A stretch of DNA of 64,000 bases, taken from positions 124,001 to 188,000 of the forward strand of contig NZ_FCOI02000007.1 of assembly GCF_001544795.2 (NCBI RefSeq). The letters run 5' to 3'. Origin of the DNA: Caballeronia temeraria. GTDB lineage: Bacteria > Pseudomonadota > Gammaproteobacteria > Burkholderiales > Burkholderiaceae. The translations under genes were made by a program, and so were the position numbers. The notes under the pieces are model-generated. The model searched no databases and was not told the origin of the DNA. It worked only from the letters and a program-made list of their open reading frames with translations. This document shows, one piece after another, positions 35,608 through 42,830 of the stretch. Position 1 is the first letter of the stretch. The number at the start of each line of letters is the position of its first letter.

Positions 35608-36819
35608 TCAGCTGATCTGGTCGGCGAGCAGCGCCATGATCTGGCGCGCTTGCGGCGAGGAATCGACCGCGCCCTTGTCGTCGACGATCGCGATGCGCGT
35701 CTGCTGCTCGGTCACTGCGCGCACGTTGATCTGATACTGCTTCGCCTTCATTTCCTTGCGGCCATGAAATACCTGGCTCCAGAAACCCTGTTCCGCCGAC
35801 GACTTGTCCGTCGGATCGACGTAGCGCACGTAGTAGACGCCCTTGTTGCGGTCGCGGTCGTCCACCGTGAAGTTGGCGCGATCGAGCGCATTGCCTACGC
35901 GCAGCCAGGCGCGGTCGTAGGCTTCGGGCAAGGTCAGTTCCGACGACGAGGCTTCGGGCACGACTTCGTTGCGGATCGGCGTATTGCCCGCGTTCACGAC
36001 GTTCTGCGCCGCAACCGATGCCGCCTTCGGATCGCCGCCCTTCGCGGCTTGCGCGCCCGCAGCTCCGGCGGCAGCCGGGGCATCGAGCGGCGTGGCGCCA
36101 CCGGACGCACTGCGCTGATCTGCCTGCGCGAGCGAGGACATCAGGCGCTTCAGGTATTCGTTCTCGAGCGCCGGATCGTTCGGGCGCGCCTGCCACTGGC
36201 TCGTGTCGTTGTTCACGCCGGTCAGCGCCTCGCGCATGCCCTTCTGGCTGATGAACACGTACGTGCCGCCGCTCGGCGCCTTTTCGAGACGCGTGCGGTA
36301 TTTGTTGCGCTCGGCGGTCACATATGAGTTGCCGGTCGCCTTGGCGAGCGTGTCGCGGATCAGGCCGTCGGAAATCTGCGGATGGGTTTCGTTCCAGTCC
36401 GTTTCCATCACGCCCTTGTCGCGCTGATCGACGACGAGCAGAAAGCCCTGTTCCTGCCAGAAGCGGCGAATCTGCGGCCACACCTGATCGGGCGTCTTGC
36501 CGTCGACGACGAGCCAGCGCTCGGTGCCGTCGCGCTGAATGCGCATGCCCGACACCGGCGGAACCACCGTGGGTGCGTTCGGTGCGACTTTCTGGATCTG
36601 CTGCAGATCGGACAGCGATGCCTGACCGCCCTGCGGCGGCAGCGAACGCTGGTCGGCCGCTTCGTCGAGCAGGTTCGGCGGAACGGCGAGAGACACCTGT
36701 TTCGAACGCTGATCGCTCTTGTAGTTGAACGCATTGGGATTGGTGGAACCACATCCCGCCACGATTCCGGCCACCGCGAAAAGCGCAGCCATCCGCTTCG
36801 TTACACGAAAATCTGTCAT
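35608..36819 (-). CDS. bamC: Outer membrane assembly lipoprotein BamC
   Basis: BamC is a lipoprotein of the BAM complex that inserts beta-barrel proteins into the outer membrane. The 403-residue protein has a signal peptide (MTDFRVTKRMAALFAVAGIV) and lipobox VAGC with the lipidated Cys23. A disordered N-terminal lasso (KSDQRSKQVSLAVPPNLL) and two helix-grip domains (RWLVVDGKTPDQVWPQIRRF; LPEAYDRAWLRVGNALDRA) follow, separated by an Ala/Gly-rich linker near 240-280. The Ala-rich linker is longer than in E. coli. No dapA gene sits upstream as it often does. Confidence 0.93.
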   Translation of the reverse strand: MTDFRVTKRMAALFAVAGIVAGCGSTNPNAFNYKSDQRSKQVSLAVPPNLLDEAADQRSLPPQGGQASLSDLQQIQKVAPNAPTVVPPVSGMRIQRDGTERWLVVDGKTPDQVWPQIRRFWQEQGFLLVVDQRDKGVMETDWNETHPQISDGLIRDTLAKATGNSYVTAERNKYRTRLEKAPSGGTYVFISQKGMREALTGVNNDTSQWQARPNDPALENEYLKRLMSSLAQADQRSASGGATPLDAPAAAGAAGAQAAKGGDPKAASVAAQNVVNAGNTPIRNEVVPEASSSELTLPEAYDRAWLRVGNALDRANFTVDDRDRNKGVYYVRYVDPTDKSSAEQGFWSQVFHGRKEMKAKQYQINVRAVTEQQTRIAIVDDKGAVDSSPQARQIMALLADQIS

Positions 36820-37237: not shown

Positions 37238-37699
37238 GTGGAAAAAATCAGAATTCCTCATTACGTGGCGACCTGCCTGGGTGTCTTCGTGATGGGCGCA
37301 TCGGCGTGTGCCCATGCGCAACTCGGCACGACCGGGGCCGCCGCGGCCGGAACGCAAGGCGATGTCGTGCATCAGGCGCAGGGCGGACTCGTGCAATACC
37401 ACGAAACGACCGACGCCAACGGCATCGTCGTGCGTGAATACGTCGATTCGAGCGGCACAGTGTACGCCGTGTCCTGGCGCGGTCCGGCGATGCCGGATGT
37501 CCAGTCGCTGCTCGGCGGCTACTTCGAGACGTTCCGGCAAGGCGCGAACGCATCGGCCGGCGATGCGGGACTGCACACGTCGCGCGTCGCGAGCGGCGAT
37601 CTCGTCGTCGAAAATCGCATGAGGCTGCGGGAATTCACCGGCCGCGCCTGGCTCGTGAGCGCGTTGCCGCCGGGCGTGACGTCGACGGACATCCAGTGA
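37238..37699 (+). CDS. DUF2844 secreted protein
   Basis: A 153-residue exported protein of a family of unknown function. It has a Sec signal peptide (MEKIRIPHYVATCLGVFVMG) ending in AHA-Q, with predicted cleavage near 27/28. A beta-rich mature part follows: GLVQYHETTDANGIVVREYV, GTVYAVSWRGPAMPDVQSLL, and VENRMRLREFTGRAWLVSA. The start is GTG at 37238 with GGAGAGAAAG upstream. Its TGA overlaps the GTG of the next gene (GTGA), so it is coupled to the DUF3443 lipoprotein gene, a pairing I associate with Burkholderiaceae. Both products should reach the periplasm or envelope. Confidence 0.85.
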   Translation: MEKIRIPHYVATCLGVFVMGASACAHAQLGTTGAAAAGTQGDVVHQAQGGLVQYHETTDANGIVVREYVDSSGTVYAVSWRGPAMPDVQSLLGGYFETFRQGANASAGDAGLHTSRVASGDLVVENRMRLREFTGRAWLVSALPPGVTSTDIQ

Positions 37700-38989
37700 G
37701 AAGCCGATCATCTCTCCTTCGCCGCACCCGTTTTCTGCGTCCTGCTCCACGCCTGCGGCGGTGGCGGCGGCTCGAGCGACAGTTCCGCCGCCGCGTCGCC
37801 TCAGCAGGCAAGCGCACCCGCAACGGCCAGCGCCGCCACGCCGGCGAGCTCGCCGTCGTCCGCGAGCGCGGCGTCACCGGCATCCGACGGCACGACCGTG
37901 GCTCAGTCGACGACGCCCAACGTCCAGATCATCCGCGTCGCCAGCACGCCGACCAGCACGCGCAACATGCTGCAAACCAGCGTGACGATCTGCGTGCCGG
38001 GCACGAACACCTGCCAGACCATCGACAACATCCAGGTCGATACCGGATCGCACGGCCTGCGCGTGCTGGCGTCCGCGCTCGATCCGTCGATCGCGCTGCC
38101 GCTCGTCGCGGGCAGCAGCCCGAGCGCGGTCGTCGCGGAATGCGCCGTGTTCGGCTCGGGCTATACGTGGGGCGCGGTGCGCAGCGCCGATATCCGGCTC
38201 GCGAGCCAGGTCGCGCCCTCGACCTCCGTGCAACTGATCGCCGATACCGCCGCGGGCAACGCGGCCCAGGATTGCAGCCAGTCCGGCCTGCCGATGCTCA
38301 CCGCGTCGGGCCTGCGCGGCAACGGCATTCTCGGCGTCGGCCCGTTCACCGCCGATTGCGGCGCGGGCTGCGCGCTCTCCGCGCTGCCGCGCTGGTATTA
38401 CAACTGCACCTCGGGCAACTGCGTCGCGGGCACGCTGGCGGTCGCGCAGCAAGTGACCAATCCGGTCGCGAACTTCGCGTCCGACAACAACGGCGTGCTG
38501 ATCGAGCTTCCCGACGTGCCCGACAGCGGCGCATCGTCGGTCACGGGGACGATGACCTTCGGCATCGGCTCGCAGTCGAACAACCTGCTCGGCGCCGCGA
38601 CGGTGCTCAAGTCGAGCTCGGCGTCCGGCTATGTCACGACGGTCTTCAGCGGCAGCCAGTACGGTTCGAGCTTCATCGACAGCGGATCGAACGGCGTCTT
38701 CTTCCCGTCGACGACGCTCGCGAAATGCGGCGTGTGGTATTGCCCGTCGACGCCGCAGACGGTCGCCGCGACGATCCGCTCGTCGAGCGGCGCGCAAAGC
38801 GCGGTGAGTTTCACGGTCGCGCAATCGACGGCCTTGTTCGGCACGGGCAACTTCGCCTTCGACAACCTGGCCGGCTCCGCGAGCGGTTACTTCGACTGGG
38901 GCCTGCCGTTCTTCTACGGCCGGCGCGTGTTCACGGCGCTCTCCGGGCGCGCGACGCCGGCGGGACCGGGGCCGTACTACGCGTTCTGA
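37696..38989 (+). CDS. DUF3443 lipoprotein, pepsin-like motifs, apparent frameshift in the signal peptide
   Basis: The GTG at 37696 overlaps the DUF2844 stop and reads MRSRSSLL. The remainder of a lipoprotein signal (AAPVFCVLLHACGGGGGSS, with lipobox LHAC) is in the +1 frame, so one extra base lies within 37717-37720. Without a shift the first ATG would be at 37898 and export would be lost. The mature part has a Ser/Ala/Pro linker and then a DUF3443 domain. It contains IQVDTGSHGLRV (38039-38050), GILGVG (38324-38341), SFIDSGSNGVFF (DSGS 38678-38689) and WGLPFFYGRRVF (38897-38932). These match in order the catalytic and structural motifs of pepsin-type aspartic proteases. Protease activity is inference. 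Confidence 0.8.
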
Positions 38990-39054: not shown

Positions 39055-39438
39055 CTACGCCTTGCTTTCTTCGTCGAAAATCTTCTGCGCGAGATGGAAG
39101 GCCGAATTCGCTGCCGGCACGCCGCAATACACGGCCGTCTGCAACAGCACTTCCTTGATCTCGTCCTGCGTGACGCCGTTGTTCTTCGCGGCGCGCAGGT
39201 GCAGCGCGAGTTCCTCGCTGCGGTTCAGCGCGACCATCATCGCGATCGTGAGCAGACTGCGCGTGTGACGCGGCAGGCCGTCGCGCGTCCAGATTTCGCC
39301 CCACGCATAGCGCGTGATGAAGTTCTGAAACTCGGTCGTCAGCTCGGTGCGATTCGCAAGCGACCGGTCGACGTGCGCGTCGGACAGCACCGCGCGGCGC
39401 ACCTTCATCCCGGCTTCGTAACGTTCGTCGTCGGTCAT
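39055..39438 (-). CDS. pcaC: 4-Carboxymuconolactone decarboxylase
   Basis: PcaC decarboxylates 4-carboxymuconolactone to the 3-oxoadipate enol-lactone. The 127-residue AhpD-like helical protein has MTDDERYEAGMKVRRAVLSD at the N-terminus. RYAWGEIWTRDGLPRHTRSL, ALNRSEELALHLRAAKNNGV and ETAVYCG-type LLQTAVYCGVPAAN follow. It is a separate protein, not fused to PcaD as in some actinobacterial PcaL. It is the last gene of pcaIJFBDC, two bases after pcaD, and is followed by a terminator. Confidence 0.95.
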   Translation of the reverse strand: MTDDERYEAGMKVRRAVLSDAHVDRSLANRTELTTEFQNFITRYAWGEIWTRDGLPRHTRSLLTIAMMVALNRSEELALHLRAAKNNGVTQDEIKEVLLQTAVYCGVPAANSAFHLAQKIFDEESKA

Positions 39439-39440
39439 CT

Positions 39441-40229
39441 TTATTCTCCGAGGAAGTCGAGGACGGCGCGCGTGTAGTCGTCGCGCTTTTCAATGTTCGA
39501 CAGATGCGCCGCGTCCAGTTCGACGTAGCGCGATCCTTCGATGTAACCCGCCAGCTCGCGGCCCTGCTCGGCCGTCGTCGACAGATCGTGCGTGCCCGCA
39601 ATCACGAGCACGGGCAGCCTGATCGTCTTCGCTTCGTCGCGCAGGTCGGCGTCGCGGATCGCCTCGCAGTTCGACGCGTAGCCGTCGCCATTGGTATGGC
39701 GGAACACGTCGCGGATGTTCGCGAGTTCGAGCTGCTCGCGCTCGATGAACGGCGCGGTGAACCAGCGCGCGATCACGGCATCGGTCAGCGCGGGCATGCC
39801 GCCCGGCTCGCGCGCTTTCGCGGCACGCGGCGTCCATACGGCATCCGAGCCGATCAGCGCCGCCGTGTTCGACAGCACCACGCGCGAGAAGCGCTCCGGA
39901 TGACGCGCGGCGAGGCCGACGCCGGTCAGGCCGCCCATCGACAGACCGCAGTAGTTCGCGCGCTCGATCTTGAGATGATCCATCAGGCCGATCACGTCGC
40001 CGATCAGCTGATCGATGGTGTACGGGCCGGGCGGCACGTCCGAATGGCCGTGGCCGCGCGTGTCGTAGCGCAGCACGCGATAGCGCGCCGCGAAGGCTTC
40101 GATGTTCGGCGTCCACATCGAGACATCGGCGCCGAGTGAATTCGACAGCACGAGCCACGGCGCGTTGTCGCCCGCCGTGACATCGATGCGATAGTGGATT
40201 CGCGTTCCGTTGACTTCGGCAAGAGGCAT
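39441..40229 (-). CDS. pcaD: 3-Oxoadipate enol-lactonase
   Basis: PcaD hydrolyses the enol-lactone to 3-oxoadipate. The 262-residue alpha/beta hydrolase has the oxyanion/DTRGHGHSD segment, the nucleophile elbow GLSMGG, the acid in VIAGTHDLSTT and the histidine in LDAAHLSNIE. The ATG at 40229 opens MPLAEVNGTRIHYRIDVTAG; upstream in-frame sequence belongs to the shadow of pcaB. It lies four bases after pcaB and two before pcaC, so the genes are tightly coupled. Confidence 0.94.
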   Translation of the reverse strand: MPLAEVNGTRIHYRIDVTAGDNAPWLVLSNSLGADVSMWTPNIEAFAARYRVLRYDTRGHGHSDVPPGPYTIDQLIGDVIGLMDHLKIERANYCGLSMGGLTGVGLAARHPERFSRVVLSNTAALIGSDAVWTPRAAKAREPGGMPALTDAVIARWFTAPFIEREQLELANIRDVFRHTNGDGYASNCEAIRDADLRDEAKTIRLPVLVIAGTHDLSTTAEQGRELAGYIEGSRYVELDAAHLSNIEKRDDYTRAVLDFLGE

Positions 40230-40233
40230 GTTT

Positions 40234-41601
40234 TTACCGCTCCTGTTTTTTCGAGCTGGCGCGTGCGATGGCCGCGGCGACGAACGCCTGCGCCTCACCG
40301 ACGTAGTTCGCCGGATCGAGCAATGGTTTGAGTTGATCCTGCGACAGATGACGCGTGACGGTTTCGTTCGCGGCGAGTTCGTCGAAGAGCGACGTGCCGT
40401 TCGCCACCGACGCCTTCGACGCGCCTTCGACGAGCTTATGCGCATCGAGCCTGCCGATGGCGTCGCCGAGCGCGAGCATCACCGCTTCGCCGAGAATCAG
40501 ACCGTTGGTCACGCCGAGATTGCGCGCGAGGCGTTCGACATTGACTTCCATCGACGGAACGATGCCCACGATGTTCGACAACGCGCCCGCCGTCAGACGC
40601 GCGAGATCGGGCAGCGCTTCCCATTCGGCCTGCCAGCCGCCGAGCGCGCGTTCGTGCTCCTGGACCATGCCCGCGAAGATCGTCGCGACGAGATTCGGCG
40701 CGCGCGTCGCCGCGGTGAGCACGGCCGCGCAGCCGACGGGATTGCGCTTGTGCGGCATCGTCGACGAGCCTCCCTTGCCTGCCGCCGCCGGTTCGGCCAC
40801 TTCGCCGAGTTCGGTCTGCATCATGAGCGAGATGTCGCGCGCGATCTTGCCGAGCGTGCCGGTGACCATGCCGAGAAACGACGCCGCTTCCGCGATGCGA
40901 TCGCGCTGCGTGTGCCACGGCAAGGCCGGAAGCGCGAGCTTCAGGTCTTCGGCGAGCGACGCCGCGACCGGCAACGCCTTGTCGCGCAGACTCGCGAGCG
41001 TGCCCGCCGCGCCGCCGAATTGCAGCACGAGCGCGCGCGCCTTCAGTTCGCCGAGCCGCTCGCGATGACGCGTCACGGCATCGAGCCATTGCGCGAATTT
41101 GAGACCGAGCGTGATCGGCAGCGCTTGTTGCAGCCACGTGCGGCCGATCATCGGCGTCTTGTCGTGCGCGCGGGCCTGTCTGACGAGCGCATCGGAGAGC
41201 GCGCGCAGATCGGCATCGAGCAGATCGAGCGCCGCGCGCAACTGCAGCACGACGCCCGTATCGATGATGTCCTGACTCGTCGCGCCCCAGTGCACGTACT
41301 TCGCGGCTTCGGCGTCGCGTGCCTTCACGACGGCCGTCAGTTGCTTGACGAGCGGAATCGCGAGATTGCCGCCCGCCGCGGCGCCGGTCATCAACGCGTC
41401 GGCGTCGATGTGATCGGCGTCGCACGCGGCGACGATCGCCTCGACCGCGCTCGACGGAATCACCCCGTGCAGCGCCGAAGCACGCGCGAGCGCGGCCTCG
41501 ACGTCGAGCATCGCCTGCACGGTCGCGCGCGGCGACCAGATTTCATTCGCGGCCGCGTTGCCGCAAATGAGATCGGTCAAACGTCCTGTCGATGAAAACA
41601 T
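40234..41601 (-). CDS. pcaB: 3-Carboxy-cis,cis-muconate cycloisomerase
   Basis: PcaB lactonises 3-carboxy-cis,cis-muconate, the product of protocatechuate 3,4-dioxygenase. The 455-residue member of the fumarase/aspartase superfamily shows YVHWGATSQDIIDTG, TWLQQALPITLGLKFA and the superfamily signature GKGGSSTMPHKRNPVGC. The bacterial cycloisomerase ends after ANYVGEAQAFV. No pcaGH dioxygenase genes are in this window, so the first pathway step must be encoded elsewhere. Confidence 0.95.
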   Translation of the reverse strand: MFSSTGRLTDLICGNAAANEIWSPRATVQAMLDVEAALARASALHGVIPSSAVEAIVAACDADHIDADALMTGAAAGGNLAIPLVKQLTAVVKARDAEAAKYVHWGATSQDIIDTGVVLQLRAALDLLDADLRALSDALVRQARAHDKTPMIGRTWLQQALPITLGLKFAQWLDAVTRHRERLGELKARALVLQFGGAAGTLASLRDKALPVAASLAEDLKLALPALPWHTQRDRIAEAASFLGMVTGTLGKIARDISLMMQTELGEVAEPAAAGKGGSSTMPHKRNPVGCAAVLTAATRAPNLVATIFAGMVQEHERALGGWQAEWEALPDLARLTAGALSNIVGIVPSMEVNVERLARNLGVTNGLILGEAVMLALGDAIGRLDAHKLVEGASKASVANGTSLFDELAANETVTRHLSQDQLKPLLDPANYVGEAQAFVAAAIARASSKKQER

Positions 41602-41605
41602 GGGC

Positions 41606-42808
41606 TCAGACGCGCTCGATGATCATCGCGATGCCCTGGCCCACGCCGATGCACATCGTGCAGAGTGCGAAGCGGCCGCCGGTGCGTTGCAGCTGATAGC
41701 TCGCCGTCGTCACCAGACGCGCGCCCGACGCGCCGAGCGGATGGCCCAGCGCGATCGCGCCGCCGTTCGGGTTGACGCGAGGATCGTCGTCGGCGACTCC
41801 GAGCATGCGCAGCGTGGCGAGTCCTTGCGAGGCGAACGCTTCGTTCAGTTCGATCACATCCATCTGGTCGATGGTCATGCCGAGACGCTTCAACAGCTTC
41901 TGCGACGCCGGACCCGGACCGATGCCCATCACGCGCGGCGGCACGCCGGCGGTGGCCAGACCGAGAATGCGCGCGCGCGGCGTGAGGCCGTTGCGTTTGG
42001 CCGTTTCCTCGTCGGCGATCAGCATGGCGACCGCGCCGTCGTTCACGCCCGACGCGTTGCCGGCCGTCACCGAGCCGTCCGGACGCACGACGCCTTTCAG
42101 CTTCGCCAGCGCTTCGAGGCTCGTTTCACGCGGATGCTCGTCGCGGTCGACGACGAGCGCATCGCCCTTCTTCTGCGGAATCGTCACCGCGACGATTTCC
42201 TGCGCGAGCGTGCCGTCCTTCTGCGCGCGCGCCGCCTTCTGCTGCGAGCGCAAGGCGAACGCGTCCTGATCGGCGCGGCTGATCTTGTAGTCGTCCGCGA
42301 CGTTTTCGGCGGTCTCGGGCATCGAATCGACGCCGTACTGCTTCTTCATCAGCGGATTGATGAAACGCCAGCCGATGGTCGTATCGTGGATCTCGGCGGA
42401 ACGCGAGAACGCGCTCGTCGCCTTGCCCATCACGAACGGCGCGCGGCTCATGCTTTCGACGCCGCCCGCGATCATCAGGCTCGTTTCGCCCGCCTTGATC
42501 GCGCGCGCCGCGACGCCGATCGCGTCCATGCCCGAGCCGCACAGGCGGTTGACCGTCGAGCCTGGCGTGCCGACCGGAAGACCCGCCAGCAGCGCGGACA
42601 TGCGCGCGACGTTGCGATTGTCTTCGCCCGCCTGGTTCGCGCAGCCGTAGATCACTTCGTCGATGGCTTCCCAGTCCACTTCCTTGTTGCGCTCGACGAG
42701 CGCGCGCAGCGGCACGGCGCCGAGATCGTCGGCACGGACGGAGGACAGCGAACCGCCGTAACGGCCGATCGGCGTGCGGATGGCATCACATACGAAAGCT
42801 TCTTTCAT
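41606..42808 (-). CDS. pcaF: 3-Oxoadipyl-CoA (beta-ketoadipyl-CoA) thiolase
   Basis: PcaF cleaves 3-oxoadipyl-CoA into succinyl-CoA and acetyl-CoA. The 400-residue thiolase has the nucleophile region VNRLCGSGMDAIG, the HxxxxG segment GGAIALGHPLGASGARL and the C-terminal catalytic Cys in ALCTMCIGVGQG. The ATG at 42808 has GGAGA eight bases upstream; a TTG two codons earlier is less likely. Context in pcaIJFBDC distinguishes it from acetyl-CoA acetyltransferases. Confidence 0.95.
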   Translation of the reverse strand: MKEAFVCDAIRTPIGRYGGSLSSVRADDLGAVPLRALVERNKEVDWEAIDEVIYGCANQAGEDNRNVARMSALLAGLPVGTPGSTVNRLCGSGMDAIGVAARAIKAGETSLMIAGGVESMSRAPFVMGKATSAFSRSAEIHDTTIGWRFINPLMKKQYGVDSMPETAENVADDYKISRADQDAFALRSQQKAARAQKDGTLAQEIVAVTIPQKKGDALVVDRDEHPRETSLEALAKLKGVVRPDGSVTAGNASGVNDGAVAMLIADEETAKRNGLTPRARILGLATAGVPPRVMGIGPGPASQKLLKRLGMTIDQMDVIELNEAFASQGLATLRMLGVADDDPRVNPNGGAIALGHPLGASGARLVTTASYQLQRTGGRFALCTMCIGVGQGIAMIIERV

Positions 42809-42830
42809 CTTCAATGTCTCCAGAATTCTC

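Follow-up and report, generated by a model that had tools for sequence, protein, structure and literature searches.

DUF3443, a probable family of exported, lipid-anchored aspartic peptidases with a pepsin fold, usually paired with DUF2844

A stretch of 64,000 nucleotides from Caballeronia temeraria (contig NZ_FCOI02000007.1, positions 124,001 to 188,000 of the forward strand; hereafter the window) carries two adjacent genes coding for proteins of the families DUF2844 and DUF3443. Examination of this pair in the window and in other genomes leads us to favour, with fair confidence, the view that the DUF3443 proteins form a divergent family of aspartic peptidases that have two lobes and a pepsin fold, are exported and lipid-anchored, and are usually paired with DUF2844. 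Structure prediction makes the pepsin fold of DUF3443 almost certain, and the motifs read together with the model make proteolysis within the family probable.

The predicted structure of DUF3443 is a two-lobed aspartic proteinase fold contained in one chain, as in family A1 of MEROPS; a retropepsin-type homodimer was ruled out, since both lobes lie in one chain. Alignment of one lobe with the other brings their DTGS and DSGS motifs together (E 0.0049). A DUF3443 profile, with its four motifs all colinear, matched three bacterial pepsin homologues (L126, L130 and L131; E 0.013), with which it also shares a GLP after the second psi-loop, and aligned with the pepsin-like domain of locus L012 from the first D(T/S)G to past the second (E 1e-4), both E-values being those of single comparisons. 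A search with the DUF3443 profile found the same L012 domain at E 3.9e-4. This domain (L012, 1501-1740), with the motifs DTGS, GIIG, DSGA and VLG, lies in a frame of 4118 codons in genome G137. Weak Pfam matches to aspartyl peptidase models were obtained with PF20729 (best E 1.7e-5, in 2 of the 42 members of a family alignment) and PF13650 (E 0.0014, in 5 of 42).

Other comparisons were less informative. The 42-member alignment matched a mixed alignment (A3) in the DTGS region only (E 0.055), a limitation due to A3 mixing two distant groups. A profile search of the PDB returned just three matches, none significant, all of them rhizopuspepsins (E 0.52-0.77), and a PDB search with a single sequence gave chance matches only, to pilus proteins and Kunitz-type inhibitors. 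Nothing useful came from hhalign in global mode, and nothing above cut-off from a search of NCBIfam. In three loci (L103, 5638-7161; L104, 5233-7056; L107, 5338-7047) a much longer N-terminal part precedes the peptidase domain, and is perhaps an extra domain.

Conservation of the putative active site was followed in alignments of increasing size. Residues D114, T115, S117, D327 and G329 never vary among the 25 family members of a first alignment, nor do the equivalents of the two Asp (D48 and D261) among the 42 members of the second alignment (A2), in which the other 41 are mutually less than 75% identical and from which four masked or broken sequences (L094, L101, L111 and L112) of the 45 non-redundant members were left out. 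(L112 was also left out of alignment A4, its frame running on into DUF3443.) In the largest set of 119 rows, from which 10 of 129 frames were left out by length, the second Asp is present in every row and the first in 115; the four misses are broken frames (L101, L111, L112) or masked bases (L094). The Ser three residues past the first Asp is kept in all 115 rows readable there, and DTGS with DSGS is the commonest motif pair (100/119). Both lobes thus carry a catalytic-type D(T/S)G(S/T), with the exception of a paralogue having Ala for the Gly of the first motif. At the GILGVG segment, I or V stands in 116, L in 115 and G in 119 of the 119 rows, giving the N-lobe its hydrophobic-hydrophobic-Gly motif. 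Members with both Asp extend to Andreprevotia and to acidobacterial bins, and ten Cys are conserved in the 42-member alignment, seven of them invariantly and three nearly so. Motif invariance combined with the predicted fold rules out a chance resemblance.

A preliminary description of this DNA had already pointed to these motifs as those of a two-lobed, lipid-anchored pepsin-type protease, or of a derived binding protein, beside DUF2844. The places it gave for VDTGS, GILGVG and WGLPFFYGRRVF are exact, the last being a segment which we take to occupy the place of the pepsin ILGDVFxRxYY segment; its spacing of 213 codons between the two Asp (residues 114 and 327) is right as well. FIDSGS is likewise present, although the range assigned to it, 38675-38689, covers IDSGS only. 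The fold that it proposed agrees with structure prediction and fold search, both D(T/S)G motifs are kept across the members read, a lipobox is present in the sequence, and DUF2844 is the usual neighbour across genomes. Neither an unrelated fold nor loss of an Asp, which it had named beforehand as grounds for giving up the idea, was found. Its suggestion that DUF2844 is partner or substrate of the protease is weakened by the divergent DUF3443 genes that lack a nearby DUF2844.

Several observations nevertheless weigh against DUF3443 being a family of active pepsin-type peptidases. Structural similarity is moderate (Foldseek TM-scores of 0.48-0.56 by query length; rmsd of 5.7-9.6 among the matches listed). 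Profile-profile probabilities against the bacterial pepsins alone were 0.4-3.3%, and hhalign against another group (L127-L129) gave an out-of-register alignment (E 0.16). The unrelated model Rit1_C matched weakly in 8 of the 42 members (best E 0.0017), more than any peptidase model did, and the pepsin model of Pfam, Asp (PF00026), had no match in the window's genome. At the flap, where pepsin reads Y-G-T-G and DUF3443 F-G-S-G, Phe stands in 115 and Tyr in 1 of the 119 rows, at what is likely the place of pepsin Tyr75, as judged from the hairpin position in the model and the pattern [YF]-G-[TS]-G rather than from coordinates. The psi-loop motif of the C-lobe is x-W-G (D in 84 and G in 32 rows, together 116/119, then W in 111/119 and G in 119/119) and not hydrophobic-hydrophobic-Gly. 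In the survey of Rawlings and Bateman, Tyr75 and two hydrophobic-hydrophobic-Gly motifs are listed among the features of active A1 enzymes, no homologue with Phe75 is said to have been shown active by that time, and the two bacterial homologues without such motifs are judged probably inactive (PMC2761423). Finally, a second Caballeronia paralogue has DTAS for DTGS in 20 of 20 copies (L152-L171), both Asp being kept, and DTAS is also found in L002 (1501-2559), the second DUF3443 gene of the window's genome, in L007 and in the Burkholderia plasmid copies L149 and L189. The flap Phe, the x-W-G motif and the DTAS of the second paralogue and of these plasmid copies are the observations that weigh most against catalysis.

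In the window, the DUF2844 gene lies directly upstream of the DUF3443 frame (Table 1). The DUF2844 product has a signal peptide and an A-x-A site, both recognised by eye in its translation, in agreement with the rule for signal peptidase sites. The DUF3443 frame matches PF11925 over profile positions 2-367 of 367 with 439.3 bits, against a curated cut-off of 25, and its L-H-A-C is read as a lipidation site by the lipobox rule. No pepsin-type prosegment was recognised by eye in the tether that follows it. The pair is presumably flanked by a bamC-like lipoprotein gene (35608-36819) and by genes resembling a pca catabolic cluster (39055-42814).

Table 1. Features of the DUF2844-DUF3443 locus (positions in the window) and DUF3443 genes found elsewhere with no DUF2844 beside them (positions in their loci).
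Feature	Position	Strand	Remarks
DUF2844 gene	37238..37699	+	153 codons, stop TGA 37697-37699; small secreted protein; PF11005 E 7.9e-35
GTG of the preliminary description	37696..37698	+	frame 1, outside the DUF3443 frame (frame 2)
DUF3443 open frame	37700..38989	+	429 codons and stop; PF11925 E 1.4e-131
16-nt gap against four Caballeronia relatives	37711..37712	+	relatives' ATG at the same place; placement ambiguous; DNA alignment
Lipobox L-H-A-C	37745..37756	+	from translation; followed by Gly-rich sequence; equivalent present in relatives
Tether, low-complexity Gly/Ser/Ala/Pro	37757..37900	+	about 48 residues; from translation
First in-frame start codon, GTG	37898..37900	+	would yield a 363-aa product without signal peptide
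VDTGS, first catalytic Asp motif	38036..38050	+	Asp codon 38039-38041
FGSGYTWG, flap hairpin	38150..38173	+	model strands E78-85 and E88-101; Phe at the likely place of pepsin Tyr75
GILGVG, N-lobe hydrophobic-hydrophobic-Gly (psi-loop) motif	38324..38341	+	
FIDSGS, second catalytic Asp motif	38672..38689	+	Asp codon 38678-38680
WGLPFFYGRRVF, C-lobe segment	38897..38932	+	x-W-G, not hydrophobic-hydrophobic-Gly; colinear with GLPLMNNYFTVF of L126 (hhalign)
Partner-free DUF3443, L151	4989-6065		B. vietnamiensis plasmid
Partner-free DUF3443, L188	3995-5065		Caballeronia SL2Y3 plasmid p1; same place as L191
Partner-free DUF3443, L190			genome G410

The window copy differs from its relatives at the start of the gene. 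The preliminary description had taken 37696-38989 as one gene translated from an overlapping GTG; this span is 1294 nucleotides long, which is no multiple of three, and its GTG is out of frame with DUF3443. The DUF3443 frame contains no ATG, GTG or TTG before codon 67, downstream of the lipobox. In the genus copies surveyed, the ATG lies mostly 8-18 nucleotides past the DUF2844 stop, and alignment with four relatives leaves the gap of the window copy where their ATG sits; an ATG precedes the lipobox in 16 of 16 further genus copies. A scripted lipobox pattern fitted 118 frames (10 more did not fit it); in each of the 118 except that of the window, a start codon lies 10-50 codons ahead of the lipobox Cys. 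A start, a signal peptide and a lipobox are not united in one frame here, the lipobox having no start upstream, whereas the relatives' copies do have a start codon. The window copy as assembled is thus without its start codon, and probably no lipoprotein is produced from it.

These observations make it rather likely that the window copy has become an ordinary pseudogene through loss of its start and that nothing functional is left at the locus in this strain, but the remaining frame argues the other way. It is intact; comparison of the window domain with 7 relatives gives dN/dS of 0.15-0.27, near the 0.149-0.240 found among those relatives, and dN to outgroups is at most slightly raised, at 0.069 to L045 (0.056-0.065 for L034, L043 and L041) and 0.080 to L028 (against 0.076-0.088). 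Because the frame is intact and dN/dS low, the start loss may be recent, or it may reflect an assembly error or unconventional initiation. The start loss in the window's strain leaves the conclusion at the level of the family untouched.

DUF2844 is the usual partner of DUF3443. Of 398 genomes drawn from the phylum, 10 have DUF3443 above the cut-off and the same 10 have DUF2844 above it; another, G137, gave a sub-threshold DUF3443 match only. Within Caballeronia, DUF3443 is found in 57 and DUF2844 in 58 of 58 genomes, the sole genome without DUF3443 (G406) retaining only pieces of DUF2844. These counts are less independent than they look, as the genomes are related and the ten of the phylum represent six families. 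Of 124 loci, 123 have DUF2844 upstream of DUF3443 and on its strand; at the remaining one (L037) a contig end truncates the locus, and a piece of DUF2844 is listed there. Compared over the last 250 residues, these loci yield 117 distinct sequences, some organisms coming from two collections, and they lean to near relatives, having been chosen as the best-scoring loci. Distance trees of the two families correlate at r 0.74, a value that none of 500 shuffles attained, and share 47 of 104 splits, as expected for co-inherited genes. A two-clade split of the loci, made by distance to L001 or L002, disagreed between the two proteins for 67 of 107 loci; it was not used, the seeds being unsuitable with L002 on a long branch. 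At a glance over ten loci, with neighbours not identified by profile, no recurring neighbour gene other than DUF2844 was seen.

The pairing is not an absolute rule, for three divergent DUF3443 genes lie without DUF2844 (Table 1), which was not found within the 7.5-11 kb read at these loci. Their products have lipobox-like N-termini and keep both Asp (DTGS, DTGT), and in two annotated cases a gene for a TRAP binding protein of the TAXI family precedes them. G410 and G435 have more DUF3443 than DUF2844 matches. Other plasmid copies (L149, L150 and L189) do have DUF2844, and the pair on Burkholderia glumae plasmid pBGF2 (L149, 4217-6029) is surrounded by genes for chemotaxis and flagella. In most small genomes of the genus (G400, G402, G406, G412, G423, G441, G442 and G447) DUF3443 is fragmented, stop-bearing or missing, and DUF2844 is often damaged or missing as well, the affected loci including L090, L111 and L112; G424 and one of the two G416 copies look intact. 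The Candidatus species among these small genomes are presumably leaf symbionts.

The departures from the pepsin active site could be explained if the proteins of this family kept the fold and the Asp pair and bound a peptide, a sugar ligand or DUF2844 without cutting it, as plant xylanase inhibitors of pepsin fold bind without cutting. The Phe in place of the flap Tyr, the altered second psi-loop motif and the DTAS of the second paralogue would all suit such a pseudo-enzyme, which has a precedent in PE_PGRS16, a protein with the fold and both motifs in which activity was not seen (PMC6819658). Yet both Asp and the following Ser are kept in all readable rows, Andreprevotia and the acidobacterial bins included. 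To our knowledge, the non-enzymatic relatives of pepsin lose catalytic residues, and we regard a purely binding family as possible but doubtful beside one of active peptidases.

Cleavage of DUF2844 itself, as a dedicated substrate from which the lipoprotein would release or mature a secreted peptide, appears unlikely. The usual pairing would agree with it, as would the poorly predicted stretch past the signal peptide of DUF2844 (residues 11-15 of the AF2 model, under pLDDT 50), but DUF2844 is predicted to be folded over its conserved part (107 of 128 residues at pLDDT of at least 70), in which W, LG, G and P are invariant. This part has the look of a domain for binding more than of a linker to be cut, and divergent DUF3443 genes exist without DUF2844. 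The model (pLDDT 83.6) is that of a small alpha/beta domain. It gave no clear structural match, a result which, like the partner-free loci, counts against the role proposed for DUF2844 below.

Active DUF3443 peptidases could function as follows. After crossing the inner membrane, the protein would receive a lipid on the lipobox Cys, and its flexible tether would keep it in the envelope. As the residue after the lipidated Cys (Gly or Asp) decides the membrane to which a lipoprotein is sorted, the Gly found here places the anchor probably in the outer membrane. The ten conserved Cys allow up to five disulphides, suggesting an oxidised envelope protein. Asp 114 and Asp 327, one per lobe, would activate a water molecule for the cleavage of a peptide that occupies the cleft below the flap. 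The tether contains no recognisable pepsin-type prosegment, and DUF2844, secreted separately, may therefore exert control in trans, most likely as a regulator or folding helper and less likely as a substrate; the divergent clade would work without it.

The pepsin family (MEROPS A1; PF00026) and DUF3443 have in common the two-lobed fold with a D(T/S)G in each lobe and, in the same order, the N-lobe hydrophobic-hydrophobic-Gly, the flap hairpin and the C-terminal segment. DUF3443 differs from it by its low identity (12-18% in the structural alignments among the matches listed), by the failure of PF00026 to match either in the window's genome or among the 19 families listed for members of the 42-member alignment, by the Phe of the flap and the x-W-G of the second psi-loop, and by being a lipoprotein with no recognised prosegment that usually stands beside DUF2844. 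The exported aspartic protease domains of PecA and PE_PGRS16 (PF20729) resemble DUF3443 in their DTG and DSG; PecA is not known to be a lipoprotein. It is an active mycobacterial surface protease requiring its first Asp and, unlike DUF3443, leaves the cell by type VII secretion as a protein of PE_PGRS type, with no mention of a DUF2844 partner in the available part of the report (PMC6819658). Shewasins and their kin are, like DUF3443, bacterial and two-lobed with colinear motifs, although the relation in sequence is weak (E 0.013); they have no signal peptide, and the pepsin homologues of seven bacterial species in the 2009 survey were all predicted to be intracellular (PMC2761423), whereas DUF3443 is by its sequence exported and lipidated. 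APRc and the secreted Pseudomonas enzymes of PMC12239564 are also bacterial aspartic proteases and are called retropepsin-type, a type which implies one lobe per chain (PMC2761423), in contrast to the two lobes of DUF3443.

Exported aspartic proteases (PecA; PMC6819658) and intracellular pepsins (PMC2761423) are already known from bacteria. In the open-licence literature searched, no paper was found that names DUF3443, DUF2844 or PF11925, or that joins aspartyl protease, lipoprotein, pepsin-like and Burkholderia. The preliminary description had called the pair a candidate undescribed system; this holds for the family, unnamed in that literature, and less so for exported bacterial aspartic proteases, for which PecA is a precedent. 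Only tentatively do we propose that DUF2844 and DUF3443 form an undescribed protease system of the Gram-negative envelope, in which a lipid-anchored pepsin-fold peptidase without prosegment would be under the control of a separately secreted partner, the pair being duplicated into DTGS and DTAS types alongside a partner-free branch.

With this assignment, a whole family of unknown function would gain a concrete and testable activity, and the known pepsin-fold proteins would be joined by many that are exported and lipid-anchored, from Pseudomonadota and from bins named as Acidobacteria. It also supplies a usual partner, DUF2844, whose role is directly testable, the partner-free branch offering a natural comparison. 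The finding may, in addition, bear on the origin of the two-lobed pepsins.
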